From the IMG/VR virus record IMGVR_UViG_3300030419_006925, positions 1 to 64,000 of that record: 64,000 bases of DNA, one strand, 5' to 3'. The notes under the pieces are model-generated. The model was not told where the DNA came from and did no database searches. It saw only the letters and a program-made list of their open reading frames with translations. This DNA is from a virus. Shown one piece after another: positions 49,956 to 64,000 of the stretch (positions within the stretch are counted from its first letter, which is position 1; each line of letters starts with the position of its first letter). The position numbers and the translations under genes were made by a program.

Positions 49956-50158
49956 TATTTGACCATTTTTTCTAACTGATCTGGTGTCACTTCACTATTG
50001 TCAGAAAACCTAACCGTAGGTGGGTTTTTGACAACTAGGCCTTCACCGGACTCTTCAAGTTCAAATCCTTGCAGAATTGGAACTATATCCAACTCATTTA
50101 AAAGTGATTCTTGAAGGGCCATCATGATGGCTCCGAGTGCTTGGTTTGATAAATGCAT
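49955..50158 (-). CDS. Small conserved-type phage protein of unknown function
   Basis: 67 residues with a strong AAGGAG site before the ATG. The first 25 residues (HLSNQALGAIMMALQESLLN) form an amphipathic helix. The C-terminal part (GEGLVVKNPPTVRFSDNSEV) looks like a small beta hairpin with a short helix. It is the first gene of the compact transcription block and is coupled to the zinc-ribbon gene. There is no membrane segment, metal motif or enzyme motif. I have the impression of similar small proteins near gp55 genes in other phages, but cannot verify this here. Confidence 0.75.
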   Translation of the reverse strand: MHLSNQALGAIMMALQESLLNELDIVPILQGFELEESGEGLVVKNPPTVRFSDNSEVTPDQLEKMVK

Positions 50159-50161
50159 TTT

Positions 50162-50923
50162 CTACTCCTTATTGTTTAAATGATTTTTGCAAATAATAAT
50201 TTTGCAATTTGGGTAAACTGAGACTGAGACTCCGGGTCGGAATGGGCGAGTTTCTCGCTCGGGAATCACGAACTCATCGAATCTCTTTTCCAGTTCTTCT
50301 TGTATTTTTTGCCATTCTGGCTGACTAGTGCCATGAAACTCTAATGCAAAGTTTAAGATCTTTTTATCTATATCATGCTTAAAAATATGCGGCAACAGTT
50401 CGTGTTCTCCGCCTTCACAATCCATCTTTAGGAAATCAATGAAATCAATATTATTTTGCTCAATAATCTCCTTAACAGATATTTGTTCTGGCAGATCTCT
50501 TATTTGTTCGGTATCTGCGTCTGCGGAAAATCTTTTTTCGGAAACATATGAATCATTGTTCTCGAAAAGGGCCTTGTGGCCACCAATCGATGTCGTAGAC
50601 TTCGCGAGACTGGCGGCTCTGTTCTCGCCTATGACTGCCATGTGATGTACTTGAATGTTTTCGTGTCCTTTCAATCTTTCTCGGGCGCGGAGATAATTTG
50701 ACTCTTCTATCTCGTATGCTAGAACTATTGATTCGGGATATCCATCACTAGCTAATTTTGCAAACCAGCCGGTGTTGCACCCTATGTCTACAATGAACTT
50801 AGGCTCTCTCTCAAAGTTGCATTTTTTAAAGCGATAATTATCATCCCTATAAGCTTCGCTTGCCATTCCTCGCTCGTCGCTTCTTATGCTTTGATCATTG
50901 TTGTCCCACTCTTGATATCCCAT
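50162..50923 (-). CDS. FkbM-family SAM-dependent methyltransferase
   Basis: 253 residues with a strong AAGGAG site. Residues about 42-60 (FIVDIGCNTGWFAKLASDGY) hold the SAM-binding glycine motif, followed by VLAYEIEESNYLRARERL. FIDFLKMDCEGGEHELLPHI near residues 155-175 is the hallmark of the FkbM family, whose members often O-methylate sugars or polyketides. The last gene of the glycan island in transcription order, it probably methylates the sugar product, although methylation of another target cannot be excluded. A ribosome binding site of its own suggests independent translation. Confidence 0.88.
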   Translation of the reverse strand: MGYQEWDNNDQSIRSDERGMASEAYRDDNYRFKKCNFEREPKFIVDIGCNTGWFAKLASDGYPESIVLAYEIEESNYLRARERLKGHENIQVHHMAVIGENRAASLAKSTTSIGGHKALFENNDSYVSEKRFSADADTEQIRDLPEQISVKEIIEQNNIDFIDFLKMDCEGGEHELLPHIFKHDIDKKILNFALEFHGTSQPEWQKIQEELEKRFDEFVIPERETRPFRPGVSVSVYPNCKIIICKNHLNNKE

Positions 50924-50932
50924 TTGTACTCC

Positions 50933-51184
50933 TTAATTTATATCTGTTTTGACCCATATTCCGGGGAGAGAATCTGCTAGTCTTTTTCCCCAGCCGGGGT
51001 TCGAAGGGTCGGCGGCGTTTCTAATCTGTTTCTCAATTAGAGGCTTGCGATCGACAAAACACCATTTCATCTCTACAATAAGCTCTTTACCATCTTCTGA
51101 GTAATATGCTCTTTGTTCGTCGTGGGGCGCGACATCTGGATTGCCGGCTAAAACATCATCTACCAAGTCTTTAAAATCTGTCAC
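50933..51184 (-). CDS. Small protein of unknown function in the glycan island
   Basis: 83 residues from a GTG start (51184) that overlaps the HAD gene's stop as GTGA, with GGGAG seven bases upstream. The sequence is mixed: an acidic start (FKDLVDDVLAGNPDVAPHDE), a strand pair (ELIVEMKWCFVDRKPLIEKQ) and a Gly/Pro-rich end (PSNPGWGKRLADSLPGIW). One cysteine only, no metal motif, no membrane segment. I do not recognise a family. Coupling to the HAD hydrolase gene suggests they are made together. Confidence 0.6.
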   Translation of the reverse strand: MTDFKDLVDDVLAGNPDVAPHDEQRAYYSEDGKELIVEMKWCFVDRKPLIEKQIRNAADPSNPGWGKRLADSLPGIWVKTDIN

Positions 51185-51486
51185 TCGTTGCTCCCAAAAA
51201 AGTTTTCTGAGTTTATGTTTTTATCGTCTATGAACAAGTCATAAATAGGCTTGCCAAATCTTAATTCATGATATTTTACTCCCCATTGGGCGAACTGCTT
51301 CTCTGTTGTATCTCTCCAGTCGATGCCCGTGCCCGTGCCGCGAGCAGTCCAATATACAATTACATTGCCCTCTTCGAAGAGACTATTAATTTTATCTATG
51401 TTCTTCTTAATTGGTCTTGCATCGGTATAGTCCCTATTCTCTGGTGAATCGCAAATTGTCTCGTCTATATCAACGAAGATGATCAT
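51181..51486 (-). CDS. HAD-type phosphatase, first of two related copies
   Basis: 101 residues, ATG at 51486 overlapping the previous stop as ATGA. FVDIDETICD is HAD motif I with the two catalytic aspartates. VIVYWTARGTG is the motif II strand and Thr, and YDLFIDDKNIN carries the motif III/IV acidic pair. The lysine and the short cap fit small C0-type HADs found in surface-polysaccharide gene clusters. It is clearly related to the protein encoded at 58106-58477 (both have TARG, FxQxxxWGVK, YDLxIDDK and NSEN). It probably removes phosphate from a sugar phosphate made in this island. Confidence 0.82.
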   Translation of the reverse strand: MIIFVDIDETICDSPENRDYTDARPIKKNIDKINSLFEEGNVIVYWTARGTGTGIDWRDTTEKQFAQWGVKYHELRFGKPIYDLFIDDKNINSENFFGSNE

Positions 51487-51848
51487 TTATATACCTCTTC
51501 CTTATCGTAAAAATAGTCTTCCTTGTCGAATGCTGTGGAACACAAAACCAACAAAATATCATTTCCAGTTAGATATTCTTGTTGAGCCCAGACCATCCTA
51601 TCGAGAAAGACTACTTTACCCGGCGTTAAAAATACGGTCTCAATGCCATCTCTGGAATGTAGCTCAACCTTGACTTTCCCCTGAACACAGAAGATGTATT
51701 GTTGATCTTCGTAGTGCCCGTGCTTTCCACGAACTTCGCCCTTGGGTGTGTCAGTAATATAATACATTCTTCTTGGAATAAACTTTAAATCAGTCAATTC
51801 CATATATCTTAAAATTCCAGTTTCTTCGGTTCCATTTTTGGATAACAT
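51483..51848 (-). CDS. FdtA/WxcM-like sugar ketoisomerase (cupin)
   Basis: 121 residues, ATG at 51848. The fold is a single cupin: RGKHGHYEDQQYIFCVQGKV contains the conserved His pair region and the strand that follows, and DGIETVFLTPGKVVFLDRMV is the second cupin half. The end DILLVLCSTAFDKEDYFYDK matches the closing signature of FdtA/QdtA/WxcM-like proteins (LVLAS-x2-YDExDYIRDY). These convert a dTDP-4-keto-6-deoxyhexose to its 3-keto isomer, the step before transamination. The DegT-type aminotransferase two genes upstream would supply the next step. Substrate identity is inferred; no dTDP-glucose synthesis genes are visible here. Confidence 0.82.
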   Translation of the reverse strand: MLSKNGTEETGILRYMELTDLKFIPRRMYYITDTPKGEVRGKHGHYEDQQYIFCVQGKVKVELHSRDGIETVFLTPGKVVFLDRMVWAQQEYLTGNDILLVLCSTAFDKEDYFYDKEEVYK

Positions 51849-51849
51849 A

Positions 51850-52785
51850 CTATTTTTTTCTCCTTAATAAAATTAAATTTGATTTAGGTAGCTGACCTAT
51901 CGGGTACCGCCAGAGATCGTCGAGCCACGGTTTTCTATCTAATACTTCAAATTTCTCTCGCATTTTTACAAAATCATTATAAATTTCTGGTCGCAGTTGC
52001 TTGAATCGTTCGTTAGCCGATGTTGAATTCGGAACGAGTGGGCGACCTTCTCCGGCTCTGTTCTCACCACCATTGTCAAACAAGGTGGTTGTGTCAACGG
52101 TCTCCGGCAACAAGCGAAAATCGAAGACTGCTCGGCCTTGGCCGGGTTTCGTTTTATCCTCATTGGGTTGCCAATGGGTATCCTCAATAATATAAAAGCC
52201 TCCAATTTTTACCAAACTGGCCAAATTAATAAAACTCAACTGTTGGTGGTAAAAAGCATGCGATGCATCATCTATTATGATTTCAAATATCTCTGATGTC
52301 TTATTATACACTTGTTTTAACACTTTCTTAAAGTCTTTATAGCTATCTAAGCTTCCCTGATCTCCTTGAAAGAATCTAAATCTTTCTAAATCAGTATCTG
52401 AGGTTTTTAGCGCATTTATATCGAACCCCCAAATGTCAGCCTTGTGATAGTATTCGTGCCACATTCTTATGGAAGGAAAGTCTTCTATTTTCCTATTCAT
52501 GTTATTCTCGCCATGCTCAGGTCCGCCATTGTTTAGACCAATTTCCAAAATATTAATCTTATCGTGTCGAGAGTATTCAAAATAATGTTCATACAAAAGT
52601 GTAAAGCCGGAACAACATCCGGTTGTGGTGCCCTTGTCGGTTCCAAACTTGTTGGCTAGTTTCGTTAAGGTTAACTTTTGGAAGAAGCTGTTAGTGGGAG
52701 GCATGCCCCACGGGTCGTCATAAGATTCATAAGTTCTGATCGCGGATCCTTCCGAATCATATTCAGTAATCACTTTCTTTCCCAC
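51850..52785 (-). CDS. SAM-dependent O-methyltransferase, macrocin/cephalosporin-hydroxylase type
   Basis: 311 residues from a GTG start overlapping the aminotransferase gene by 16 bases, with AGAGG upstream. LTKLANKFGTDKGTT opens the fold and INILEIGLNNGG is the SAM-binding motif. FEIIIDDASHAFYHQQLSFI and GGFYIIEDTHW are the paired IDDxSH and IEDxH signatures of the metal-dependent MycE/macrocin O-methyltransferase group. Those enzymes methylate hydroxyls on deoxysugars. A stretch of extra residues (GPEHGENNMNRKIEDFPSI) lies between the SAM loop and the next strand. It most likely methylates a sugar of the island; the exact position cannot be read. Confidence 0.85.
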   Translation of the reverse strand: MGKKVITEYDSEGSAIRTYESYDDPWGMPPTNSFFQKLTLTKLANKFGTDKGTTTGCCSGFTLLYEHYFEYSRHDKINILEIGLNNGGPEHGENNMNRKIEDFPSIRMWHEYYHKADIWGFDINALKTSDTDLERFRFFQGDQGSLDSYKDFKKVLKQVYNKTSEIFEIIIDDASHAFYHQQLSFINLASLVKIGGFYIIEDTHWQPNEDKTKPGQGRAVFDFRLLPETVDTTTLFDNGGENRAGEGRPLVPNSTSANERFKQLRPEIYNDFVKMREKFEVLDRKPWLDDLWRYPIGQLPKSNLILLRRKK

Positions 52786-53696
52786 AATACCTCTTTGATT
52801 ACTGTTTCCACCTCTTCATCCGTCATCATTTCGTGATATGGAATGCTAACAGTAGAGTTTGATTCAATGATAGATAGCGGGAGTGGGGTCTCTGTAGTTG
52901 ATTTGTAGCACTCCACGTCGTGAACCGTCCTGTAATGAATACCACATTGAATCCCCCTTTGCTTCATGTTTTCTATAAAATCATCCCTATCGTCAACTCT
53001 CAATCTGTACAGGTGTCGACTTGTGTTGCTTAACCCAAGCGCACTATTGTAGGCCTCTCGAACTTCATCAAAGCGCTTAGCCTTGGCTTCAAGCTTTTCA
53101 AGATTTTTCAAAGCCACATAAGCCTGTATGGAATTCATATACATTTTCCAGCCGGGAAGAACGAACTTTCTCTCCCAACTGTTATCTTCGAAGTTTGTTC
53201 CATATCTTGAGAGTATTTTTAATCTTCTAATCTTCTCTTCGTCATTTGAGACTATCATCCCCCCGTCAATGCTGCCAACAGGCTTGGTTGGATAAAAACT
53301 AAAAATCATCAGGTCTTCATCGTTTGCTTGTTCGGCAAACTGATTTTTATCTAGCTGTTGTGCCGAATCTATGATCTTATAATCCTCAAATTGGTGAAGA
53401 GTGTATGAGTGCCCTACCCAGTTCACATCATCTCTGTATCTTACGTTGTGTCCTGCTGTTAAAATAGCGTTCGGCACTACGGGCGGAATGATCGAAGGGA
53501 TCTCAATTGTTGTTTTTTCTTGTTCTAATAACGTCATGAAAATAGCCATCGTTGCGCTGTGAATCGAACACGCATATTTGGCTCCAACATAAGAAGCTAT
53601 TTCATTTTCCAATTCTTCCACTATTTTATCATTTAATAGAGGACGAAATTGAGATGTGTCAATCACATAATCGTTGACATGCATTAATTTAATCAT
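52770..53696 (-). CDS. DegT/DnrJ/EryC1-type sugar aminotransferase, short form
   Basis: 308 residues, ATG at 53696 overlapping the previous stop as ATGA. VGAKYACSIHSATMAIFMTL is the PLP-domain opening with its Ser/His turn. YKIIDSAQQLDK holds the Asp that pairs with the pyridine ring, and FSFYPTKPVGSIDGGMIV supplies the PLP lysine. The C-terminal domain (GIHYRTVHDVECYK and VSIPYHEMMTDEEVETVI) is also recognisable. The protein is shorter than the usual 370-400 residues, with trimmed loops, but keeps the key residues. It would add an amino group to a keto sugar nucleotide, probably the product of the FdtA-like isomerase. Confidence 0.87.
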   Translation of the reverse strand: MIKLMHVNDYVIDTSQFRPLLNDKIVEELENEIASYVGAKYACSIHSATMAIFMTLLEQEKTTIEIPSIIPPVVPNAILTAGHNVRYRDDVNWVGHSYTLHQFEDYKIIDSAQQLDKNQFAEQANDEDLMIFSFYPTKPVGSIDGGMIVSNDEEKIRRLKILSRYGTNFEDNSWERKFVLPGWKMYMNSIQAYVALKNLEKLEAKAKRFDEVREAYNSALGLSNTSRHLYRLRVDDRDDFIENMKQRGIQCGIHYRTVHDVECYKSTTETPLPLSIIESNSTVSIPYHEMMTDEEVETVIKEVLWERK

Positions 53697-54397
53697 TTTA
53701 TCTCCAAAGGGGGGCTAAATTTTTTTGAGGTGCTGACAGTCCTAGAATACCCAATACTATCTCCTTTACCCCATTTAAAATTATCAGAAGCGATTTCTAT
53801 TTGTTGAATATCAGACATGTAACTACTAATCTGTTTTCTCCACCAAGGAAATTTTTTAACTGTTAGTCTTGCTGGCTCCCCGTGTTTATTGTGTGACTGC
53901 ATATGGTGTATTGCCAAAATCCATCCTTCTTTGGAGACTCTGTTCATTTCTGATAGTACGCGTAATAAATCTTCTTCCGGAATATGCTCTAAGACTAAAA
54001 AAGAGGTTACTATATCAACGGTATTGTCACCTAGTGGTATCTCTGTTGAATCTCCTTCAAAAAAAGTAATCACATCACTGGCGTATGAATCTGTTATTCC
54101 TAGACCTACACTGGCTATATCAATGCCATAGGCTTTTTTTGCACTAAACGAATTGACTGCATCGTAACAAAATTTTCCAGACCCGCACCCAATATCTAAA
54201 ATAACCTTATCCTTAAGATTAAGTCTTTGATTAATTTTTTTATCATTCACAGAATTTGTAAATAAATCATAAAAAGCACTACCATAGTTTCTTACTAATC
54301 CTTTTGGAGCTTTAGTGCCATTTGGCATTACTGTCCAATCGCATCCTTCAGAGTGTAAGTAGCCATCCACAAAACTAGTTTTTAGTTTTTCATTCAT
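53693..54397 (-). CDS. Class I SAM-dependent methyltransferase (UbiE/Methyltransf_11 type)
   Basis: 234 residues, ATG at 54397 in an ATGA overlap with the DUF962-like gene. VILDIGCGSGKFCYDAVNSF is the SAM loop, KKAYGIDIA the acidic ribose-binding strand, and TVDIVTSFLVLEHIPEEDLL the post-II motif typical of UbiE-like enzymes. The C-terminus contains a basic, Trp-bearing stretch (KKFPWWRKQISSY). The target is not evident; a sugar or lipid intermediate in the island is the likely substrate. It is one of three methyltransferases of different families within 4.3 kb. Confidence 0.87.
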   Translation of the reverse strand: MNEKLKTSFVDGYLHSEGCDWTVMPNGTKAPKGLVRNYGSAFYDLFTNSVNDKKINQRLNLKDKVILDIGCGSGKFCYDAVNSFSAKKAYGIDIASVGLGITDSYASDVITFFEGDSTEIPLGDNTVDIVTSFLVLEHIPEEDLLRVLSEMNRVSKEGWILAIHHMQSHNKHGEPARLTVKKFPWWRKQISSYMSDIQQIEIASDNFKWGKGDSIGYSRTVSTSKKFSPPLEIK

Positions 54398-54687
54398 AGC
54401 TTAATTCTTCCCGTTAACATATCCTTAAACATAATCCAGTCACTAATCTTCGCCTTTACGGGATCACTAAATGCTGCTGGTTTATTTTTTTCAAAAAGAA
54501 AGTGGCCAGACCAAGCAAACGGATAGATCACGAATGGTGCCAGCAATAGCGACCACAATTTCATATTGAGTCCCACAATTAAGCACACATAGGATATTGT
54601 AGCCAATTGACCTACGAAATGAAGCCTACGACACCACTTATTTTGATGTAACGTTAAGTAGTGTTTATAGTATTCATCCATTTCCAT
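54394..54687 (-). CDS. Small DUF962/Mpo1-like membrane protein
   Basis: 97 residues from the ATG at 54687, which has GGAG seven bases upstream; a longer frame to 54732 lies inside the epimerase gene and is not preferred. DEYYKHYLTLHQNKWCRRLH and FVGQLATISYVCLIVGLNMK form the first part: a conserved N-terminal helix with a His, then a membrane helix. A second hydrophobic segment follows (LLLAPFVIYPFAWSGHFLFE), with an FEKNKPAAF motif as in DUF962/Mpo1-like proteins. Mpo1 in yeast is a dioxygenase of fatty-acid alpha-oxidation. Whether the phage protein has this activity is unknown; a lipid-linked role in the envelope is a guess. Confidence 0.8.
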   Translation of the reverse strand: MEMDEYYKHYLTLHQNKWCRRLHFVGQLATISYVCLIVGLNMKLWSLLLAPFVIYPFAWSGHFLFEKNKPAAFSDPVKAKISDWIMFKDMLTGRIKL

Positions 54688-55639
54688 CTTCAAGCTCCAT
54701 AAATGTCTGTATGTTATAAAACCTTTTGTCATTTAAGTCTATGTTTCTTTTTTTAACTTCTCGCAATATTTCTCGAATTGATTCTCTCGGGTTGTATCGG
54801 GGTTGAAAATTTAACAACTCCTTAGCTTTCTCGTTTGAAGCCAAATAGTTTCGAACATCTGGCCTGTTCTGTATTTCTACTTCGATGTTTATACCGTTTT
54901 CTGAGAGTTCTTTTTCAACGTCTTCTGCTAGTTTTCCGATGGTGTAGTTTTCTCCGCAAATATTGAACACGCCGGCGATACCATGATCACAAGTAATTGC
55001 CTTCTTGTATGCTTCAGTTACATCTCGAATATCGATTAAGGGGCGCCACAAATTAGGATTATGAACAACTATTTTACCTTGCGTTAGAGCAAACTTGGTC
55101 ATTGTGTTGACCACTAAATCAAATCTCATCCTAGGAGACCAACCGCCCACTGTGCCCTTTCTCATCGAAATGGGTCTGAAGGATTCATCCTGCAGGTTCA
55201 TCAGTGAGTACTCTGCTTGTAGTTTGGAAATACCATATGGATATTGTGGATTGACCGGGCTGTCTTCAGACATAATCTTGTTATCTGTAAATCCATATAC
55301 ACTACACGAACTAGCATACACATAGCGCGGAACTCCAACTTCTTTGCTTATGAAGGCCAAAAATGACGGGGCTGCGGCGTTCTCTATAAAGTTTCTTTTT
55401 GGGCTAAAGTTGGCCATTGGGTCATTGGACAGGCCAGCGAGAAAAACTACTGCGTCGTGTCCTGCGATCTCTTCTCTGGTAAGATCCATTAGGTCTTTGT
55501 GAATCATTCTTACATTTGAATTTAGGTAGTTTCCGAACCAAAACAAATCGACTGCAGTTACTTGATGGCCCTCAGTTGCCATCTCGTTGCACAACCTAGT
55601 TCCCACATAACCTCCACCACCAGCAATTAACACCTTCAT
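54674..55639 (-). CDS. NAD-dependent sugar epimerase/dehydratase (extended SDR)
   Basis: 321 residues, ATG at 55639 directly after the preceding stop. The NAD loop is GGGGYVGTRL at residues 7-16. The catalytic Ser region is YASSCSVYG near 108-116, and YPYGISKLQAEY near 132 supplies Tyr and Lys of the YxxxK motif. The C-terminal half (WRPLIDIRDVTEAYKKAI and GVFNICGENYTIGKLAEDVE) is typical of nucleotide-sugar epimerases and dehydratases. It would epimerise or reduce a sugar nucleotide. Its exact product cannot be told from sequence alone. Its 3' end overlaps the start of the DUF962-like gene by 14 bases. Confidence 0.9.
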   Translation of the reverse strand: MKVLIAGGGGYVGTRLCNEMATEGHQVTAVDLFWFGNYLNSNVRMIHKDLMDLTREEIAGHDAVVFLAGLSNDPMANFSPKRNFIENAAAPSFLAFISKEVGVPRYVYASSCSVYGFTDNKIMSEDSPVNPQYPYGISKLQAEYSLMNLQDESFRPISMRKGTVGGWSPRMRFDLVVNTMTKFALTQGKIVVHNPNLWRPLIDIRDVTEAYKKAITCDHGIAGVFNICGENYTIGKLAEDVEKELSENGINIEVEIQNRPDVRNYLASNEKAKELLNFQPRYNPRESIREILREVKKRNIDLNDKRFYNIQTFMELEDGNG

Positions 55640-56428
55640 CTACAGACACTCTTCCCTAAATTGATCATAATATTTGTACCAAATTTTAATTGCAGCATTC
55701 TCATTCATAAGAGTAGCAAACCTGATGCAGTTTTTGTTGTTATCATCTCCGTCCCATATCGGACCCCATGGTTTGCGGCGGCCGCTGTAGTGAATTATCT
55801 TTATTAGTTCTTTGTTGTTTTCATAATCTTTTGGATCGCCCTTGCCGCCGGCGCCAAAATTTTGAAAATTATAGGCTTCAGACACGGTGCCCACATCCGG
55901 ATTATTCGGACTGAACATATGCTGACAGGTGACCTGATCTCCATCGGGCCTGTGTTTTATCCCTGTGCTTACAACCAATTCCACCATCTTGTCATAGCAT
56001 TCGCCGGTTAGGTATTTCTCTCCTGCAATCAGCAATCCAAGATTGGGATATTTCCAAATAATCTCAGTCTCATCTTCTATAAGATTAGAAAAGTCTCCGG
56101 TGCACAACATGTCGGCATCTAAATAGACGCTCCTTTTGTATCCAATTTGAGCAAAAGTCTCAAACGAAAGATAAACATCATAATTTCCAACACCATAAAT
56201 TGTTCGTGGAATATGCTCATAAAAACTAGAATCTCTCGGAGGATCAAAAATCGTATCCTTGTGTGCCTTGCGAATGAGATTCATGCTCTTTTCATTCAAA
56301 TTATTATAGGGCACCTTTATATCACATTCATCAAAAACTCTCAAATTCTTTTTTAATGAGTGAATCAGTACCGCGGCCGCTAAAGCAAAATCATCAGAAG
56401 CGGGTATGCAAATAGCATATTTTTTCAT
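55640..56428 (-). CDS. Glycosyltransferase, GT8-like
   Basis: 262 residues, ATG at 56428. The start KKYAICIPASDDFALAAAVL is the nucleotide-sugar-binding strand and loop. KRSVYLDADMLCTGDFSNLI near residue 100 contains the DxD metal-binding motif (YLDADM) of GT8-type enzymes such as glycogenin and LOS galactosyltransferases. IKIIHYSGRRKPWGPIW near residue 220 corresponds to the conserved C-terminal HxxGxxKPW motif (here HYSGRRKPW). The enzyme would transfer a sugar to the glycan under assembly. Donor and acceptor are unknown. A stop-start junction joins it to the epimerase gene downstream. Confidence 0.85.
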   Translation of the reverse strand: MKKYAICIPASDDFALAAAVLIHSLKKNLRVFDECDIKVPYNNLNEKSMNLIRKAHKDTIFDPPRDSSFYEHIPRTIYGVGNYDVYLSFETFAQIGYKRSVYLDADMLCTGDFSNLIEDETEIIWKYPNLGLLIAGEKYLTGECYDKMVELVVSTGIKHRPDGDQVTCQHMFSPNNPDVGTVSEAYNFQNFGAGGKGDPKDYENNKELIKIIHYSGRRKPWGPIWDGDDNNKNCIRFATLMNENAAIKIWYKYYDQFREECL

Positions 56429-56431
56429 ATC

Positions 56432-57283
56432 TTATACCTTATTTAAATAATCGGCCAAAGGCCTTTTGTGTTCCGGGAGGCTCTCGAAATCCGATAACTT
56501 CATACGTCCTCCAAATGTCTCTCTCCATTCTGTGGGATGTATCCCATAGTATACCGTTAGTATTGTGCGCTCGCCTTGTTCAACCTTTGTTCCCTTGTGG
56601 AACCCGTTCGTATTACCCAGTATAACATCTCCGACGTCACCTTTGCATCTAATAATCCTATCTTTTCCATAAATCGATTCGATATCATTGTGTGTCCAGC
56701 GATATTTTGAGTTCCAACCATTAAATTTTTGTAGATGACTTCCGTGGACATAAGTAAAGGGACCGTTGGCGTCTGTTACATCATTGAGATAAAAGAAAAA
56801 TTTTAAAAGTCTTGGGCTATCTTTGTCGCAATGAAACAAGGTTGTTTGACCATTGCCCGGAATATTTGATTCACTTATCGTAGTAGCCTTGCTTTTTCTT
56901 AGCTGGACATTATTGATTGCGGGGAGGCAATTAAAATAGCTCTTTGCTATTTCTACAACCTCATCATCAAACGCAACATTAAAGACCGAATCACACGTTA
57001 AAAGAGGGTGTGCAACCTGTTCTGTGTAGAAATCATTGTACTGTAATTCTCCCCGAGACTTAATTAGCTCAAACTCTTCCTTAACTGCGGCTAATCTTAT
57101 AGGATCTATAAACCCTTTTATACTCGAATACCCATTTAAATTTACCTCTTCCGCCGCGTGCTTGTACGTATCGCCAATATCAACCGGGTATTTCTCCCTA
57201 CGCTCCTGAATGCATGCGGCGTATCTTTCCACTTCAGATTGACCTCCCCATGCGCATGTCGGATTTATCTTAATTTGTATCAC
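56432..57283 (-). CDS. PhyH-family Fe(II)/2-oxoglutarate dioxygenase
   Basis: 283 residues from a GTG start overlapping the previous stop as GTGA. LFHCDKDSPRLLKFFFYLND near residue 150 holds the HxD iron-binding pair, and DVILGNTNGFHKGTKVEQG near 228 holds the distal His. ERTILTVYYGIHP supplies the Arg that binds 2-oxoglutarate. The overall pattern is that of phytanoyl-CoA dioxygenase-like proteins, which hydroxylate small molecules and sugars. Placed among sugar genes, it may hydroxylate or oxidise a sugar or lipid part. A second oxygenase of the same superfamily lies at 63036-63851. Confidence 0.85.
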   Translation of the reverse strand: MIQIKINPTCAWGGQSEVERYAACIQERREKYPVDIGDTYKHAAEEVNLNGYSSIKGFIDPIRLAAVKEEFELIKSRGELQYNDFYTEQVAHPLLTCDSVFNVAFDDEVVEIAKSYFNCLPAINNVQLRKSKATTISESNIPGNGQTTLFHCDKDSPRLLKFFFYLNDVTDANGPFTYVHGSHLQKFNGWNSKYRWTHNDIESIYGKDRIIRCKGDVGDVILGNTNGFHKGTKVEQGERTILTVYYGIHPTEWRETFGGRMKLSDFESLPEHKRPLADYLNKV

Positions 57284-58113
57284 TTTCTACATCCAAAGTA
57301 TTTTCTTCTAACTTCTGGAAAATCATCAAACATGTGAAATTCAAACTTAAGTTTTTCCAAAAGGTCCAATTGTTGTAGATGATATTTCACTAATTGATGA
57401 TTTGAAATACGGCCGCTGGCGTCAGTTCTGCAATTTTCTGGCTTATTGTATTCGTCTAAATGATCATACAGCGAGAAGAAGTCTGATGAATTCTTAGAAT
57501 TCGCAAAAAACCAGAGGTCTAAAAACCCCTCATCATTGATTGGATAACCCTTGGTGGTTCTCTTAAGCTCTTTGAGCATTGGATGCCGGGCCTGTATTAA
57601 ATCATATAATGGGCCCCGACCTCCTTTGAATAAATCGGTTCCATTTCGATCAACAACCGCAGACCACTTGCCGGCATAAAAATATTCATTATCAAAATTG
57701 TCAAAAATCACATCAGTCTCAAATGCCAAATCAAATCGAGTTGTCATAACGTAGTCATATTTAAAATCATTTTCTTGTTCATGTTTTTGTCTAAGCTCGT
57801 TGACTATTTTGTTAGAATACCACCTACTATAGTGGTTATTTTTGCGTGTATCCTCCCCCTTTACATAATCTGGTATATCGAAGTATATCTGTTCTTCGAA
57901 AAGGCTCTTGGTGGGATTATAAAGCTCCAAAGTCTTATCTTCCAATTCTTTGTCCCAGCAATGCACAAAAACATCAACATCATTTTTGTCAAGTATGTGT
58001 CTTTGGTAGTGTTCGTGCCCTTTTATGAGTACTCTAGGATCTGATTCGAAGAAACCTGATTTTCCTTGTATATTGCCTATTTTTCCACTAAGACATAGTG
58101 CTACTTTACTCAC
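57280..58113 (-). CDS. Glycosyltransferase-like protein of uncertain family
   Basis: 277 residues from a GTG start, overlapping the end of the HAD gene by eight bases. The start SKVALCLSGKIGNIQG resembles the opening strand and loop of several surface-glycan glycosyltransferases. VDVFVHCWDKEL and YDYVMTTRFDLAFETDVIFD (with its RFDL acidic motif) match a pattern seen in capsule and LPS cluster proteins of unknown donor type. The C-terminal half has no recognisable motif. A transferase role is inferred from these motifs and the setting, not from a defined family. It overlaps the PhyH gene downstream as GTGA. Confidence 0.68.
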   Translation of the reverse strand: MSKVALCLSGKIGNIQGKSGFFESDPRVLIKGHEHYQRHILDKNDVDVFVHCWDKELEDKTLELYNPTKSLFEEQIYFDIPDYVKGEDTRKNNHYSRWYSNKIVNELRQKHEQENDFKYDYVMTTRFDLAFETDVIFDNFDNEYFYAGKWSAVVDRNGTDLFKGGRGPLYDLIQARHPMLKELKRTTKGYPINDEGFLDLWFFANSKNSSDFFSLYDHLDEYNKPENCRTDASGRISNHQLVKYHLQQLDLLEKLKFEFHMFDDFPEVRRKYFGCRK

Positions 58114-58477
58114 TTAAAAACTCCTTGATATCTGATAATTTGTTTACGTTTTCGGAATTTAGCGCCTTGTCATCAATCAACAGATCATAATGAATCTTGC
58201 CCATGACCAATTGATCAAACTTGACTCCCCAGTTTTTTAACTGCTCAAAGGTTATATCATATAAATTTGAATATATATCATTTACATTACCAGCGAAACT
58301 GGTCATGCCGCGGGCTGTGTACACTATAATTTTATTGCCCTTTGCGTGACATTCGTTCACTATATCAATCATATCCTTGTTTGGTTCGCATGTGTGATAT
58401 TTTTTAATTTTTCCTTTTTCAGATGTCCTGTAACACAAGACATCATCCAAATCAAATGCAATCACCTTATTGTGCAT
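58106..58477 (-). CDS. HAD-type phosphatase, second of two related copies
   Basis: 123 residues, ATG at 58477, overlapping the GatZ-like gene by 16 bases. AFDLDDVLCY is motif I, IIVYTARGMTS motif II, and YDLLIDDKALN motif III/IV. It aligns with the 101-residue HAD at 51181-51486 along almost its full length, including FEQLKNWGVK against FAQWGVK, but has a longer insertion between motif I and II. Such small HADs accompany nucleotidyltransferases in capsule clusters. The neighbouring kinase/nucleotidyltransferase suggests a sugar-phosphate substrate. Confidence 0.83.
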   Translation of the reverse strand: MHNKVIAFDLDDVLCYRTSEKGKIKKYHTCEPNKDMIDIVNECHAKGNKIIVYTARGMTSFAGNVNDIYSNLYDITFEQLKNWGVKFDQLVMGKIHYDLLIDDKALNSENVNKLSDIKEFLSE

Positions 58478-59457
58478 AAAATTTCCTCTATTCTTTGATT
58501 GATTTTTCTTTTAATCTTTGAGTCTATGTTTGGGTATTTCCCTTTTATCTCTTGAAACTCGGGGTTTGCAAAAACATAATGGCCCGATGTCCTTATTATA
58601 GCATACTTTCTTATTTCGTTTACGCTAAAGAGCGCTTTTGCAGGAAGCCATTTTTTCCACTTGTCTGATTCATAACAAAGAGAATACAGTTTTTGGAACG
58701 ATTTTTCATCAAAATGATTTAAAATCTCTTCAATCACACACTGTGTTTCTATTGCTCCAAATTCGGGAGCAATATTTATAGCGTCTAATCCCAAATCAAA
58801 TCTGTTTTTAATCTCCTCTGGGGATAGATAATCTCCATTGTGTTCTTTCGACAAGACACCAAAGTTTTTACAGGTCTCAATCATTTTTGAACAACGCTCT
58901 TCGTCGTATTCGCCTATATTTCGATTTCCCTCAATTCTGGTGCCACCTTGTATAACCGCATATTTAATCTGCGCAAAGGCGGGGCCTAGTATTTTTTTCA
59001 AATCAAATAAGATCTTTTCAAATTCTCTGTGTGAGTATTTTCGAATTGCCTGTTCTGTGCCAATTTCATATAGGCAATTCGAATTTACGCGGTTGCAGGC
59101 TTTGATTAATTCGGCGGTTGCGTTAATTCCGTCTTCTATATTAGTATATTCCTTCCAAGGATCAATATGTATCAGATCAAAACAGGCTTTTGCATCAGCA
59201 ATTAGTGATTGTTTTCCATCATCCATAGTCTTTCCTTGGGCTGGGCCGGCGTGATCTCTTTCTATAATCACCTTGTCTGTTCTATTTCTAACATAATCAA
59301 CAAATTCGGCTGTGGTCCAATTGTTTACGTAGCCGCCGTCATGTTCTATTTGGCGGCGAGATGGGATTAGTCCGATTATATCATCAGAATTGTTGCATTT
59401 TTCAATGACCACATCTACTATATTCTTGCTCATTGGTCCAATAAAAAGTTTAGCCAC
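58462..59457 (-). CDS. GatZ/KbaZ-like protein (tagatose-bisphosphate aldolase family)
   Basis: 331 residues from a GTG start, overlapping the nucleotidyltransferase gene by eight bases. IGLIPSRRQIEHDGGYVNNW and VIIERDHAGPAQGK near residues 60-75 match the GatZ/KbaZ pattern (NQxGGYTGxTP, then GGDHLGPNPW). FDLIHIDPWKE corresponds to the IHLDASM strand. A short C-terminal helical part ends the protein, which is shorter than the 420-residue bacterial GatZ. Bacterial GatZ/KbaZ are non-catalytic partners of class II aldolases. Related genes occur beside HAD phosphatases and sugar nucleotidyltransferases in surface-sugar clusters, as here. The reaction it supports is not known. Confidence 0.72.
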   Translation of the reverse strand: MAKLFIGPMSKNIVDVVIEKCNNSDDIIGLIPSRRQIEHDGGYVNNWTTAEFVDYVRNRTDKVIIERDHAGPAQGKTMDDGKQSLIADAKACFDLIHIDPWKEYTNIEDGINATAELIKACNRVNSNCLYEIGTEQAIRKYSHREFEKILFDLKKILGPAFAQIKYAVIQGGTRIEGNRNIGEYDEERCSKMIETCKNFGVLSKEHNGDYLSPEEIKNRFDLGLDAINIAPEFGAIETQCVIEEILNHFDEKSFQKLYSLCYESDKWKKWLPAKALFSVNEIRKYAIIRTSGHYVFANPEFQEIKGKYPNIDSKIKRKINQRIEEILCTIR

Positions 59458-61036
59458 GATTAGCCTCCAATAAATTATATAAACTTTGCTTGCCTAAGTA
59501 AAACAACATCTTGGAATAAGGATAATGATGCAGTGGTGCAATATTTAAAAAGATGAGCGATGTCAATAATTTAACTTTGTAGATATCTAGTTCATTATCA
59601 TGTAAAAATTTTATAAAATCGGCTTCATTCTCAACAAGAGAGTGTTTTCTATAAAAATCATATCCTATCACGTTGTCCGTCTGCTTAACATTATAACACT
59701 CTTTGTTAATAAGTTCATGTGAAACAATCAATCCGTGCAACAATTTTGCCAAATCATAATAAAGATCGCCATATGCTTTGATTCCTGCGAAATTTTGGCG
59801 CCAATCTAAAAGACAGAATTCTCCAGTTTCAGCAACCAAGATATTTTCAAAATGCAAATCCCCATGCATTCTCACTGGTGTTCCCATGGAGAGGTTTTCC
59901 CAATCTACTTTGCTAAGTAAGGCTTTAACGGGAGGGATCTTTTGTCCATTGATTGTTTCAACAAGATCCTGCTCCGAAAAACGATTAAAATAAAGTTCCA
60001 CCCTTTTTTCCGTCTTATCTTTATAAAATTTATTACAAGCACTCTTGAATTTTTTTTGTTCCTGCTCGTCTAATGCTTGTTCAGTCCAGAAATCTTCCAA
60101 AAACGATAACAGTCTTTTGAACGTATTTTTATTTGTAACCTTTGATAGTGTTTGACCTGTTATCATCCTATATGAATACATGTTCTTTCGGAAGTCTAAG
60201 ATTTCCGGCACATATCCCTCAAGGCGCTTGGCTCGGTCGATGCGATCTAGGATAAAGTCTGGATCACTATTGTATTTAATGGCGCGGCCGTTAACAAACC
60301 ATATGGCTTCATTTGGCTTTTCCAGAATCTCCGGCGCATTTTTAGATTTTACGATTTCTCTGGCCGCCTTTAAGCTTTCTAAATTGCCTGTGTCGTACCA
60401 AGTAAACTTCTTAGCCTCTATCAGAGAGTTTCGTTTTACCATTTCTCGGAGGGCGTACGATTCACCGATACGAATTGAACCGTACTTCTTACCAGATTCC
60501 ATCGAGTTCCAAAATTCTTTATAATCCTTGATCCCGGCCAAGCCAATATAGGGCTTTGTGTCGTATGATAAGATTTCATCCTTCTCACATATCCTTTCAA
60601 CACAGCTTGACTTTGATACCTTAAAGGAGCGATAGTTCTGATTGTTTTCGACTTCAGCATATCCAACCCAATTTGTTGTTGGTTCGGGTACTTCCTCTAA
60701 AATCACTGTATCATTGGGGCAAAAAATGAACGGGCACTGTAGGTGCTCTTTGCATTCCAGTATCGTTAGACCAAGACCGGAGCCACTACCGCAATAGTTC
60801 TTTATTTTGACGCATGTAATTTTTCTGTCTGGGTGGGCCATCTCAAGATAATCGCGCAGCAAGTCACCTTTGTGCCCTAGGGCTATAACTATTTCTATCT
60901 CTTTTGGAAACTTCTCAATAACATGAGAGATAACCGGCTTATTGTCGAGAGATACGAGGGCTTTGTTGAGATTCTTGCTAAAATCTCCCAGTCGTGTGCC
61001 CAAGCCGGCTGATGGTATTAGCACTTTATAATTCAT
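59450..61036 (-). CDS. Fused sugar-phosphate nucleotidyltransferase and APH-type kinase
   Basis: 528 residues, ATG at 61036 in an ATGA overlap with the sulfotransferase gene. Residues 1-235 are a nucleotidyltransferase: LIPSAGLGTRLGDFSKNLNK with the GxGxRL-x-K loop, then IFCPNDTVIL. Residues about 250-520 are an aminoglycoside-phosphotransferase/choline-kinase-like domain: MHGDLHFENILV near 389 (catalytic Asp in HGDLH) and CLLDWRQNFAG near 409 (metal-binding Asp). The combined protein can both phosphorylate a sugar (or amino alcohol) and activate the product as a nucleotide. Such fusions are known from bacterial capsule clusters. It is followed by GatZ-like and HAD genes, so the three probably form one sub-pathway. 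Confidence 0.85.
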   Translation of the reverse strand: MNYKVLIPSAGLGTRLGDFSKNLNKALVSLDNKPVISHVIEKFPKEIEIVIALGHKGDLLRDYLEMAHPDRKITCVKIKNYCGSGSGLGLTILECKEHLQCPFIFCPNDTVILEEVPEPTTNWVGYAEVENNQNYRSFKVSKSSCVERICEKDEILSYDTKPYIGLAGIKDYKEFWNSMESGKKYGSIRIGESYALREMVKRNSLIEAKKFTWYDTGNLESLKAAREIVKSKNAPEILEKPNEAIWFVNGRAIKYNSDPDFILDRIDRAKRLEGYVPEILDFRKNMYSYRMITGQTLSKVTNKNTFKRLLSFLEDFWTEQALDEQEQKKFKSACNKFYKDKTEKRVELYFNRFSEQDLVETINGQKIPPVKALLSKVDWENLSMGTPVRMHGDLHFENILVAETGEFCLLDWRQNFAGIKAYGDLYYDLAKLLHGLIVSHELINKECYNVKQTDNVIGYDFYRKHSLVENEADFIKFLHDNELDIYKVKLLTSLIFLNIAPLHHYPYSKMLFYLGKQSLYNLLEANRG

Positions 61037-61920
61037 ACTATTGTGATCCCTGCATAATCATCTTTATCATATCCGAAGTTGTCAAAATCTTCTTTATAAA
61101 ATTCATAAATCTTATTTGCTGTTTCTTGGGTCATTGCTCTTGACAGTTTTTGGCTCTCCTTGAAAGATGCATTATTTCTACCGAGAGATAACGGCTGCCG
61201 GTTGATTACCTCTTCCACAAAACATATTCCTATTTCGTTTTCTAATCTCTTCCAATCGTTTTCAAAATTTTCAAATCTACCAACAAAATCAACATTATGA
61301 TGCTTGGGAAGAAAGAAAGACTGATTTTTAATGTGGTTATCTTTAAACGTGTTCGTGTATACTTGTTCTACAAATGAATCAAAAACTAAAGCACCCTTTG
61401 ATGCTGTCTCCATGGGATCAGAATCAAAAGCACGAAACATCTTATAAGCAGAAAATAGCCTGTCATAAGGATTTCTCACAAAACCAAATTTGAAGTAATT
61501 TCGAAAAGATCTCTCGCCGGTTATCGGCGGGGCATCCGACGCGCGGGTGCCAGATGGCTTCAATTGAAGGCTCGGGGCGCGCTCTGCATTCATGCGAGCC
61601 TCTTGGCTTTTCCAATATTCCCACTTAAGAGTTGTCAAATATTTTAAATTCTTGACGGCGTCTTGTGGGTTTTTTTCAAGCCACGACATTAAGCTTGGAA
61701 TTTTCAACATTTCCTTTATAGATGAAGAAGCTGACTTCGGATTCAAATAACATGCTATCTTGTTCTCGTGATTAAGAAATAAGGTTTCCCACGGGCCGAG
61801 AGCGGGATGTTTCAATACTTCTCTTTGGAGGATCCTACCCCATGGCGAATATTGAGTACGCTCTTCTATAATAAAAGTGTAGTCTTCTGAATATCTCTTT
61901 TCTGTTTTCCACTCTGGCAT
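61033..61920 (-). CDS. Sulfotransferase, first of two paralogues
   Basis: 295 residues, ATG at 61920 overlapping the previous stop as TAATG. CYLNPKSASSSIKEMLKI near residues 55-72 is the 5'-phosphosulfate-binding loop (PKxAxxS). FKFGFVRNPYDRLFSAYKMF near 143-160 is the 3'-phosphate-binding motif (RNPxxRxxSxY), as in eukaryotic-type carbohydrate sulfotransferases. The enzyme would move sulfate from PAPS to a sugar hydroxyl. It has a longer N-terminal and a longer middle region than its neighbour at 61920-62681. The two share a nearly identical 3' end (see the repeat at 61071-61134). PAPS synthesis genes are not visible in the window, so the donor must come from the host or elsewhere. Confidence 0.88.
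   Translation of the reverse strand: MPEWKTEKRYSEDYTFIIEERTQYSPWGRILQREVLKHPALGPWETLFLNHENKIACYLNPKSASSSIKEMLKIPSLMSWLEKNPQDAVKNLKYLTTLKWEYWKSQEARMNAERAPSLQLKPSGTRASDAPPITGERSFRNYFKFGFVRNPYDRLFSAYKMFRAFDSDPMETASKGALVFDSFVEQVYTNTFKDNHIKNQSFFLPKHHNVDFVGRFENFENDWKRLENEIGICFVEEVINRQPLSLGRNNASFKESQKLSRAMTQETANKIYEFYKEDFDNFGYDKDDYAGITIV
61071..61134 (-). repeat. Copy A of a 64-base direct repeat at the ends of the two sulfotransferase genes
   Basis: This segment matches 61955-62018 at 60 of 64 positions without gaps. It encodes the stretch from MTQETANKIYE to FDNFGY in the first sulfotransferase. The rest of the two genes is far more diverged, so this end was duplicated or converted recently, or is kept by selection. 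Confidence 0.9.
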
Positions 61921-62681
61921 TATACTACAAACCCTCCGTAATCGGCCCTATTGTATCCGAAGTTGTCAAAATCTTCTCTATAGATTTCATAAATCTTGTT
62001 TGCTGTTTCTTGGGTCATCACTTTTTGTGGTATTTGTTCTTTTTTCAACTTTGCGATCGCCGAACCATAGGGTTCTGGTTGTTTTTTGGTTGCTTCTTTC
62101 ATAAAGCGTATTCCTATGATTTTCTGCAATTTATGCCAATCGTCTGAGAATCTTTCAAGCTTTCCGATAAAGTCGATAGATTTTGGAATATGCCTACTTT
62201 GTCGATTAATGTGAGAATCAAGTTCGACTATTGGGCGCGTTGTGCGCCAGCCAGACCACTCTTGAGCAGAGAGTTCGATGCCCGGTGAAAGGTTAACATG
62301 ACCATTGGGGGGACCCTCAAGGAAGGGTCTGAACGATGTCTGGCCACAATACAGGCTGTTTATAAAATTATCAAAATTGGTTTTGCTAATTTCATTCCAT
62401 GGAAATCTATTCTTCCATGAAGGGCAAAACTTAAACATCTTATATGCTGAAAATATCCTCTCATATGGATTTCTTACAAATCCGAATCTAAACGGTCTAA
62501 AATGTTTTAAATTTTCTGCGATCGCTGATCGATCTATTGCTATAAAATATTCGTTGTCGGTGCGCCACTGCCAGTGTGTGTCCGTCTCCAACACCTCCCT
62601 CATTGATGTAGAAGCCACTTTAGGATTCAGGTAGACATACAAGGCATATTTATATTCTCTGTGGGTTATCTCGAAATCCAT
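61920..62681 (-). CDS. Sulfotransferase, second of two paralogues
   Basis: 253 residues from the ATG at 62681, with AAGGTGA upstream; a start at 62702 lies inside the cupin gene and has a site that is too close. YVYLNPKVASTSMREVLE near residues 14-31 is the phosphosulfate loop and FRFGFVRNPYERIFSAYKMF near 62-82 the 3'-phosphate motif. IDFIGKLERFSDDWHKLQKI matches the VDFVGRFENFENDWKRLENE segment in the other copy. The enzyme would sulfate a sugar; two copies suggest two positions or two acceptors. It ends with the same MTQETANKIYE...DFDNFGY element as its partner. Confidence 0.88.
   Translation of the reverse strand: MDFEITHREYKYALYVYLNPKVASTSMREVLETDTHWQWRTDNEYFIAIDRSAIAENLKHFRPFRFGFVRNPYERIFSAYKMFKFCPSWKNRFPWNEISKTNFDNFINSLYCGQTSFRPFLEGPPNGHVNLSPGIELSAQEWSGWRTTRPIVELDSHINRQSRHIPKSIDFIGKLERFSDDWHKLQKIIGIRFMKEATKKQPEPYGSAIAKLKKEQIPQKVMTQETANKIYEIYREDFDNFGYNRADYGGFVV
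61955..62018 (-). repeat. Copy B of the 64-base direct repeat
   Basis: Matches 61071-61134 at 60 of 64 positions, 884 bases away in the same orientation. It lies in the same reading frame at the end of the second sulfotransferase gene. Confidence 0.9.
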
Positions 62682-62685
62682 GCGC

Positions 62686-63027
62686 TCACCTTCGATAATC
62701 ATCCTCTAATCTGACGATATCATCTTCTCCAAAATAGGTTCCACATTGAACCTCAATAAACACCAAATCATCATCACCGGTGTTCTTAATTCTGTGGCTG
62801 GCTCCGATTGGGATGTGTACGTGCTCGCCTACTGAAAGTTCTAGGTCCTCCCCGTTGAGGGTGACTGTTGCGTTGCCCTGCACGATAACCCAATGTTCGC
62901 TACGTTTATGGTGGTATTGGTAACTTGGACGGTGGCCGGGCTTGATAATCAACCTCTTTACTTTGCAATATTCCTCGTCTAGTAGGTTTTCAAATGTGCC
63001 CCATGGGCGCTCTTCAGTATAATTCAT
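62686..63027 (-). CDS. Cupin related to the isomerase domain of mannose-6-phosphate isomerase type II
   Basis: 113 residues from the ATG at 63027, with AAGGA six bases upstream; a longer frame to 63054 overlaps the oxygenase gene. ERPWGTFENLLDEEYCKVKR, IIKPGHRPSYQYHHKRSEHW and LSVGEHVHIPIGASHRIKNT follow the PWG...H-x-H-R-x-E-H-W and H-x-I-P-x-G-x-x-H pattern of the C-terminal domain of ManC/AlgA-type enzymes. The stand-alone form would isomerise mannose 6-phosphate and fructose 6-phosphate, giving a precursor for GDP-mannose or derived sugars. No GDP-mannose pyrophosphorylase domain is fused here. Its start follows the oxygenase stop by eight bases. Confidence 0.83.
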   Translation of the reverse strand: MNYTEERPWGTFENLLDEEYCKVKRLIIKPGHRPSYQYHHKRSEHWVIVQGNATVTLNGEDLELSVGEHVHIPIGASHRIKNTGDDDLVFIEVQCGTYFGEDDIVRLEDDYRR

Positions 63028-63035
63028 TGTAGTCC

Positions 63036-63851
63036 TTAGTGTCTTGCGCTCCAAGCCAACGTTGGATCCGGATTTACATACCCGGGTACCTCATAACTCG
63101 TTGTCCACTCGGGGCTAATGTATCGTGGTGGTTTTTCTATTGTTGGTTTAACGCGTATGTTAACAACATCTCTATATCCCTCTATAATGGGATTAACCCT
63201 GTGAACTGCATTATTGATAAATGATATAGCCGTTCCCTTAGAACCTATGACCTTGTTTGCGTTAAATCCCTCTTTCAGTAATTTTTCTACTTGTGGACCA
63301 ACTCTGGAATTGTTGGGCGCCGGGTACCAATGAGACGGGCCGAGGCGGGTACATTGACCCAAGATTCCTTTATCATTTGGTGCCATCAAATATTCGAATG
63401 GAGAGTTGTCCAAAGTAACGTCATTTAAATAAATCAATGTTTTGATAACTTCATTTGGATTATTATCATAATGCCACTCATATGATGATACCCTCTTATC
63501 TAAAGGTAGAGTCCTGTATATGTAAACCTTGTCAACATATAGATTACAGTAATACTTTGTCTTTTCTAGATAAGGTATTATAATATTTGATAATTTCGTT
63601 AATTCTTCAGTAAATTTCCATATGTTAGTGTGCTTTATTAGCACTCCATCGTCATTCGAGTCTGTCATTGAATCAAAATCTCTTTTTGTTTTTTGAGACA
63701 GTGCTTCAACCATGTCGCGATATTCCGAAGTAAATTTATCTATCGGAAGCATAATCACAGGATTGCCATAAAATCTTTCGTGCTCAAATTTACTTTGATT
63801 TGTTAAAGCATAATTTTCACGACAAAGCTTATAGTATTCATCATAATTCAT
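63036..63851 (-). CDS. Fe(II)/2-oxoglutarate oxygenase-like protein
   Basis: 271 residues with an AGAGGAA site before the ATG at 63851. SSYEWHYDNNPNEVIKTLIY near residues 122-141 carries the HxD iron ligands, with LNDVTLDNSPFEYL as the following strands. GTAISFINNAVHRVNPIIEG near 205-222 carries the distal His, and YRDVVNIRVKP holds the Arg that would bind 2-oxoglutarate. The fold class is the PhyH/2OG-Fe(II) oxygenase superfamily. The substrate is unknown; its place at the head of the glycan genes suggests a sugar or lipid. It differs clearly from the PhyH protein at 56432-57283 but uses the same chemistry. Confidence 0.78.
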   Translation of the reverse strand: MNYDEYYKLCRENYALTNQSKFEHERFYGNPVIMLPIDKFTSEYRDMVEALSQKTKRDFDSMTDSNDDGVLIKHTNIWKFTEELTKLSNIIIPYLEKTKYYCNLYVDKVYIYRTLPLDKRVSSYEWHYDNNPNEVIKTLIYLNDVTLDNSPFEYLMAPNDKGILGQCTRLGPSHWYPAPNNSRVGPQVEKLLKEGFNANKVIGSKGTAISFINNAVHRVNPIIEGYRDVVNIRVKPTIEKPPRYISPEWTTSYEVPGYVNPDPTLAWSARH

Positions 63852-63863: not shown

Positions 63864-64000
63864 TCATGAATAACAAACGTAATTTGCTCTATATCCAGTT
63901 GAATATGCATCATACACATATAAAAGTCGCACTATCTTAAAGTATTTTTGCAATTCATTTTGAACAACCATTGGATCTAGATTCATTGTTGAATGATTCA
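63864..64000 (-). CDS. C-terminal end of a gene entering from the right edge
   Basis: An open frame comes in from base 64000 and ends with TGA at 63864-63866. The visible part, about 45 residues, includes MNLDPMVVQNELQKYFKIVR and ends YRANYVCYS. The internal ATG at 63984-63986 has no ribosome binding site, so the gene most likely starts beyond the window. Nothing identifies a family. It stops 12 bases before the start of the oxygenase gene, consistent with the packed gene order. Confidence 0.55.
   Translation of the reverse strand, partial: NHSTMNLDPMVVQNELQKYFKIVRLLYVYDAYSTGYRANYVCYS

Follow-up and report, generated by a model that had tools for sequence, protein, structure and literature searches.

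A phage-borne glycan locus with a conserved aldolase/kinase-nucleotidyltransferase core and exchanged cargo, possibly serving virion glycosylation

Bases 1 to 64000 of the IMG/VR virus record IMGVR_UViG_3300030419_006925 (104,181 bases; contig G000), hereafter the window, carry at 50162-63851 a block of sugar-related genes, which we analyzed together with its continuation in the contig. A sequence-only reading had counted about 20 coupled genes there, and all 19 open reading frames were indeed present, all on the minus strand and tightly overlapping, but the block was incomplete: the island runs beyond the window edge and ends at about 73343 of the contig, with a total of 27 genes that mostly overlap and are otherwise at most 12 bp apart. 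The genes around the island are also on the minus strand, and its single-strandedness is therefore nothing special. Gene families were assigned by Pfam, NCBIfam and PHROG scans, and they support a coherent, phage-borne locus predicted to make and decorate sugars. The island lies at a fixed site in related contigs, with exchanged cargo around a constant core, and is laid out as follows (window coordinates unless the contig is named).

48697..49413, minus strand: gp55-like late sigma factor, right-hand landmark of the island site (phrog_234, 1e-5)
49361..50158, minus strand: three small phage genes (49361, 49692, 49955), right edge of the island site
50162..50923, minus strand: FkbM-family methyltransferase, last island gene (TIGR01444, 3.5e-16; PF05050)
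50933..51184, minus strand: 83-amino-acid protein without family match
51181..51486, minus strand: HAD2, small HAD phosphatase, EcbF/BcbF-like (TIGR01689, 3.7e-6; phrog_1238, 6e-27)
51483..51848, minus strand: FdtA-type cupin, sugar 3,4-ketoisomerase family (PF05523, 1e-23)
51850..52785, minus strand: probable methyltransferase, 311 amino acids (PHROG only: phrog_21658, 2e-17; no Pfam match)
52770..53696, minus strand: DegT/PseC-like sugar aminotransferase (PF01041, 2e-34; PseC model 4e-29, under its cut-off)
53693..54397, minus strand: class I S-adenosylmethionine (SAM) methyltransferase (PF13649/PF08241)
54394..54732, minus strand: small membrane protein, Mpo1-like (2-hydroxy-fatty-acid dioxygenase family; PF06127, 7e-29)
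54674..55639, minus strand: NAD-dependent sugar epimerase/dehydratase (PF01370, 3e-27; GalE- and LegB-like, under cut-offs)
55640..56428, minus strand: GT8 glycosyltransferase (PF01501, 9e-12)
56432..57283, minus strand: PhyH-type 2-oxoglutarate (2OG) oxygenase (PF05721, 5e-9)
57280..58113, minus strand: conserved protein adjoining the core pair (phrog_13607; 29 distinct viral homologues in the loci examined)
58106..58477, minus strand: HAD1, EcbF/BcbF-like phosphatase (TIGR01689, 5e-10)
58462..59457, minus strand: core gene, GatZ-like protein with class II aldolase fold, metal and acid residues conserved (profile, Foldseek, AlphaFold)
59450..61036, minus strand: core gene, fusion of sugar-phosphate nucleotidyltransferase and APH-type kinase (PF00483/PF01636)
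61033..61920, minus strand: sulfotransferase 2 (PF03567, Sulfotransfer_2, 9e-21)
61920..62702, minus strand: sulfotransferase 1 (PF03567, Sulfotransfer_2, 5e-16; phrog_3347)
62686..63054, minus strand: core gene, mannose-6-phosphate-isomerase-type cupin (PF01050, 4e-34; C-terminal part of GMP_PMI)
63036..63851, minus strand: putative 2OG-Fe(II) oxygenase, 271 amino acids (motifs only, no significant family match)
63864..64000 (contig 63864-65132), minus strand: methyltransferase, 3' part in the window
contig 65136-66599, outside the window: NeuB-cupin fusion (NeuB1)
contig 66599-67309, outside the window: CMP-nonulosonic acid (NulO) synthetase
contig 67275-68000, outside the window: GT42-like protein
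contig 68001-68834, outside the window: second NeuB
contig 68831-73343, outside the window: three GT4 glycosyltransferases

Complete islands were found in five contigs, G000, G001 (L010), G002 (L039), G003 (L011) and G007 (L096), which come from different metagenomes, one each. All five share the frame PD-(D/E)XK, island, three small genes, gp55, baseplate; the three small genes and gp55 follow in the same order in G001, G002, G003 and G007, and the frame is partly present in G017 and G005. Homologues were detected for 22 of the 27 island genes of G000 in G001, for 21 in G002 and for 8 each in G003 and G007. Constant in all five islands were GT4c, GT4b, the cupin, the nucleotidyltransferase-kinase and the GatZ-like gene, and without homologue in the four others were both sulfotransferases, the methyltransferase at 51850, FkbM and the 83-amino-acid gene. 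The L011 island carries GT2, GT4 and methyltransferases as replacement cargo, the L096 island a GT-D enzyme, and the L039 island gains a B12/radical-SAM enzyme; the replacement genes examined were mostly sugar genes again, as in bacterial serotype loci. In L096, a PfkB kinase, a class II aldolase/adducin protein and a transaldolase (L096:3107-5627) make up an apparently different sugar-building pathway at the same site.

The GatZ-like protein of the window had no Pfam or NCBIfam match above cut-off, and a Geobacter relative scored 30.5 bits (1.7e-7) with TIGR02810, for which the cut-off is 568.8. The assignment, first made from the sequence alone, was borne out by a profile match to 2fiq (3e-7) and by the fold: Foldseek with the AlphaFold model (predicted local distance difference test score [pLDDT] of 95) returned 3txv (1.9e-16) and 2fiq, with class II aldolases next. 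Thirty-four alignment columns were invariant across 54 sequences; Asp68-His69 and His206 were invariant in the same set and align with the same motifs in 2fiq, and an internal stretch of the G007 relative passes PF01116. The TIM-barrel fold and the retained DH and HxxD motifs place the protein in the GatZ branch of the class II aldolase superfamily. A separate class II aldolase or GatY-type partner gene was sought in G000 and not found, and the GatZ-like protein may thus act alone, as a stand-alone aldolase, contrary to the non-catalytic label of its bacterial namesake GatZ. In the fusion protein, both active sites are conserved, with G11xG13xR15, K25, D109, H391-G-D393, N398 and D411 invariant in 50 sequences. 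The N-terminal domain of its model (pLDDT of 93) is structurally nearest to LicC, a likeness that makes CTP a possible substrate of the nucleotidyltransferase half.

A single GatZ-like query matched nothing in IMG/VR and a two-sequence alignment was needed, with which 141 contigs were found, 80 of them being kept; the scan with the kinase-nucleotidyltransferase found 25 contigs. In viruses, the two genes are a strict, obligate pair: the kinase-nucleotidyltransferase was present on the same strand and within 4.5 kb in 53 of 53 viral GatZ loci flanked on either side by 3.5 kb or more, and in the reverse search, a GatZ-like gene was nearby in 15 of 16. The pair occurs in well over 100 viral contigs as well as many bacteria and archaea. 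In Geobacter, Prochlorococcus and Pelagibacter, the pair, the cupin and a KdsC-type phosphatase make up an operon. In a GatZ tree made by a quick method, without bootstrap, the window protein fell in a group of 32 viral and 11 cellular rows (support, 100), and rows of like origin, viral or cellular, clustered far beyond chance (7 changes versus 45 in shuffles). We infer that the GatZ-like gene is a long-standing viral resident and not a recent acquisition.

Some observations on the pair stand apart. The GatZ-like genes of marine Bacteroidetes genomes (L113, L115, L116, L119, L120 and L122-L125) group inside the viral clade, which may mean that viruses passed the gene to cells or that viral DNA was mis-binned. 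L119 has a kinase-nucleotidyltransferase homologue close to this gene, but in most of the loci none was detected. In Enterococcus phages too, as in phage 9183 (L006, 5657-7632), a nucleotidyltransferase-kinase fusion comes after a HAD protein, here among nucleotide-metabolism genes and with no recognised GatZ-like gene. GatZ matches labelled "Listeria phage LM" stem from metagenome-like clones that are unverified, and we did not count them as evidence from phages.

A second sugar branch lies beyond the window edge. Two NeuB-type synthases (NeuB, 9e-82 and 3.5e-47) stand together with a CMP-sugar synthetase (CTP_transf_3, 1e-11; PseF-like at 4e-7, under cut-off), the combination that marks a nonulosonic acid pathway. 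None of the precursor genes NeuC, LegG or PseG was recognised among the island genes; instead, NeuB1 is fused to a lyxose/mannose-isomerase-type cupin, which suggests a one-protein route from ketose to nonulosonate and, as a guess, a Kdn-like acid as its product. This fusion (G000 65136-66599; L002:3136-4599), whose cupin resembles D-lyxose/D-mannose isomerases, is conserved in L010, L013, L017 and L039. A profile made from 8 phage GT42-like proteins finds the Campylobacter-type CstII (9e-8), with agreement in the N-terminal, nucleotide-binding GxGPS motif, and a lipooligosaccharide sialyltransferase was among the matches; the Pfam family CST-I was matched by 3 of the 8 members (best, 6e-7), but not by the G000 protein taken by itself. 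The GT42-like gene adjoins NeuA and NeuB and may encode a transferase of CMP-activated NulO. The literature searched for a phage NeuB/GT42 pathway contained nothing relevant, PMC6292376 having proved a false lead. The 484-kb uncultured phage LR756508 (L209) has homologues of PD-(D/E)XK, GT4c, NeuB and HAD2 on one strand in one stretch (3691-27193), apparently another glycan island.

Most families of the block were confirmed by the scans (sulfotransferases, NTP_transferase with APH, PhyH, GT8, epimerase, DegT, FdtA, FkbM and class I methyltransferase), but the "2OG oxygenase" at 63036 was recognised by motifs only; homologues of this protein are present in the islands of G001, G002 and G005. 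FdtA and DegT, which had been described as a pair, are both there, but a methyltransferase gene lies between them, and an amino sugar, proposed while the nonulosonic acid branch was out of view, is a plausible product given these two genes. The 57280-58113 protein is a probable glycosyltransferase, and no relative of it was found in PDB. For sulfotransferase 2, tblastn against isolate phages gave no match. The Mpo1-like gene, within a phage glycan island, is retained in L009, L010 and L039.

The flanking genes on both sides are phage-type (SbcC-type nuclease, primase, gp6-type baseplate wedge protein, gp55 late sigma factor and PD-(D/E)XK nuclease) and there is no bacterial flank, in agreement with the phage-borne sugar locus first proposed; gp55 (phrog_234) and the gp6-type wedge protein were both confirmed. 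A PhoH-like protein near the island was recognised by eye from the sequence, and its gene (G000 75171-76460) is interrupted by a short stretch of undetermined bases. The backbone is apparently that of a lytic, myovirus-like phage. By baseplate and gp55 proteins, the nearest isolates are Microcystis phage Mel-JY01 and Flavobacterium phage immuto (about 30% identity), neither of which has an annotated glycan island upstream of gp55, and nearly identical DNA was not found in isolate phages. Close to the baseplate genes, the window encodes at 24344-35068 a 3574-amino-acid protein with a ConA-like lectin (Laminin_G_3) domain, possibly an adhesin and glycan acceptor. Intergenic gaps are at most 40 bp throughout, from the baseplate region (44 kb) through gp55 and the island up to 75.1 kb, which allows co-expression of the island with structural genes. 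Promoter scans were uninformative: the late-promoter motif TATAAATA had 13 copies on both strands, nearly all intragenic and none just upstream of the island, and sigma-70 matches were barely above chance. An anti-phage defence reading was also discarded, as the sole match of PADLOC on ten proteins was a weak Cas4-like nuclease for the flanking PD-(D/E)XK gene.

Wzx flippase, Wzy polymerase, initiating transferase, WecA-type transferase and ABC-2 exporter were found in none of 11 records (G000 and ten related) searched with PF01943, PF04932, PF01061, PF02397 and PF00953, with which the positive controls matched. Likewise, apart from the small Mpo1-like protein, a crude hydropathy scan of the complete islands detected no protein that spans the membrane several times. 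Since neither export and lipid-carrier families nor the thymidylate-synthase family were found in the records searched, and no gap above 40 bp separates the island from the structural genes, we prefer, with a probability of about one half, a polymorphic glycan-assembly locus at a fixed site that serves cytoplasmic glycosylation of virion proteins. There is a precedent in mycobacteriophages, whose capsid and tail tube subunits carry glycans (Freeman 2023, as cited in PMC12619734). The conserved module of GatZ-like aldolase, HAD phosphatase, isomerase-type cupin and kinase-nucleotidyltransferase would build a sugar phosphate by aldol addition and convert it to a nucleoside diphosphate (NDP)-sugar, by analogy with NDP-heptose synthesis in the order aldol addition, isomerisation, dephosphorylation, anomeric phosphorylation and nucleotidyl transfer. 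NeuB, the NeuB-isomerase fusion and the CMP-sugar synthetase would supply a CMP-nonulosonic acid in a second branch. Soluble glycosyltransferases (three GT4, GT8 and GT42-like) would then put the glycan together in the cytoplasm, and methyltransferases, aminotransferase, oxygenases and sulfotransferases would decorate it. The likeliest acceptor would be a virion protein from the same gene block, giving particles with a swappable sugar coat; the catalytic order, the sugar identity and the virion as acceptor are all inferred.

Several points weigh against virion glycosylation. Missing export genes are also expected if the phage feeds the exporters of its host, and since the contigs are fragments, export genes could sit elsewhere, so that their absence is weaker evidence than their presence would be. 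The DegT, SDR and NeuB scores are under the equivalog cut-offs and do not fix the exact sugars, and lipids could just as well be the substrates of the sulfotransferases and of the Mpo1-like protein. Moreover, a change of the host surface is favoured for similar cyanophage genes (PMC9602691).

In this host-surface remodelling, sugar precursors would be supplied to or diverted into lipopolysaccharide (LPS) or capsule assembly of the host, the infected cell surface would be altered and other phages or grazers excluded. The genes of P-SSM2, S-SSM7 and S-SCSM1 have been interpreted in this way (PMC9602691), Campylobacter GT42 members act on lipooligosaccharide, host exporters could be used, and the core operon is also present in marine bacteria, with an exporter-like gene near one Prochlorococcus locus. 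However, no phage-encoded lipid-carrier or membrane step was found in any complete island, and a lytic myovirus-like backbone would leave surface exclusion little time to pay off; this explanation is the main rival, somewhat less likely than virion glycosylation. Far less probable is a modification of the phage DNA, by glucosylated or otherwise hypermodified bases: a thymidylate synthase/dCMP hydroxymethylase-family gene was not found in G000 and the four related complete-island records, although the control matched, and to our knowledge sulfation, NeuB and CMP-sugar genes have no role in DNA modification. That virus glycosyltransferases can hypermodify DNA is cited in PMC12619734. Metabolic reprogramming, with mannose-6-phosphate isomerase feeding glycolysis as an auxiliary carbon-metabolism gene, was the interpretation for S-SCSM1 (PMC9602691), but it is just as improbable here, where in dozens of loci the cupin is in a module with the nucleotidyltransferase-kinase and the aldolase, among glycosyltransferases. 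An assembly chimaera of phage and bacterial DNA, which the likeness in gene content to bacterial polysaccharide loci might suggest, is excluded for practical purposes by the repetition of site and order in four further complete-island contigs, and partly in G017 and G005, from different metagenomes, and by the core shared with the single-cell-derived virus AG-345-E15. Thus, neither of the two findings that would have overturned the sequence-only reading was made: there is no join to a bacterial contig, and the genes recur together in related islands of other phages.

Virion glycosylation, if true, would explain the purpose of large sugar-gene blocks in lytic phages, and a virion glycan that the phage makes itself and can swap would bear on recognition by phage receptors, grazers and antibodies. 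Tentatively, one may go further and see a serotype-like locus in which whole cytoplasmic pathways are exchanged around the invariant aldolase/kinase-nucleotidyltransferase core, a sulfated/methylated nonulosonic acid glycan of the phage's own is put on virion proteins, and the core pair is a new, largely viral nucleotide-sugar route. The pair is widespread in viruses and cells and offers a concrete target for tests in vitro. Viral mannose-6-phosphate isomerase genes, which occur in viral metagenomes at psbA-like frequency (PMC9602691), should not be read solely as carbon metabolism.

With 27 genes between the landmarks PD-(D/E)XK/PhoH and gp55/baseplate, the locus belongs with the phage glycan/LPS islands. 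These are already published, for S-SCSM1 with its 13 cell-wall genes and for P-SSM2 and S-SSM7, cited alongside it for LPS genes (PMC9602691), and an "undescribed system", as first suggested, is too strong a term. The S-SCSM1 region (MK867354, ORF113-135) is likewise contiguous and on one strand, and its roughly 20 genes include glycosyltransferases, 2OG oxygenases, methyltransferases and a type II mannose-6-phosphate-isomerase cupin, but it makes GDP-fucose-type sugars; BLAST matches were limited to the cupin (37%) and one methyltransferase (27%), and no homologue of the nucleotidyltransferase-kinase/GatZ pair, NeuB, GT42 or sulfotransferase was found in it. The single-cell-amplified marine virus AG-345-E15 (MH319741) has adjacent GT57, HAD, cupin, kinase/nucleotidyltransferase and GatZ genes (25-62% identity) in its own glycan island, but with other flanks (a ribonucleotide reductase-like gene) and otherwise other cargo, the module being unannotated in its record. 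The operon of Geobacter, Prochlorococcus and Pelagibacter (KdsC, GatZ, glycosyltransferase-like, cupin and kinase-nucleotidyltransferase) shares the three core enzymes in tight order, but its GatZ proteins form a separate tree group and its phosphatase is KdsC-type rather than EcbF/BcbF-type. Glycosylated mycobacteriophages, as far as we know, have few glycosyltransferases and lack genes for sugar synthesis, nonulosonic acid and sulfation. They share with the proposed system the glycans on phage structural proteins (Freeman 2023, as cited in PMC12619734). Bacterial capsule and O-antigen loci have the same conserved flanks and exchanged centre, with NDP-sugar synthesis, glycosyltransferases and decorating enzymes, but the suggested resemblance to a capsule cluster fails on Wzx, Wzy, initiating transferase and ABC-2 exporter, the export/polymerisation genes of Wzx/Wzy or ABC loci, none of which was detected by family search in the 11 records. 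Set against these systems, three features appear to be new to the literature searched: the obligate aldolase/kinase-nucleotidyltransferase pair, a nonulosonic acid branch that includes a GT42-like enzyme and belongs to a tailed phage, and the exchange of cargo at a fixed site.

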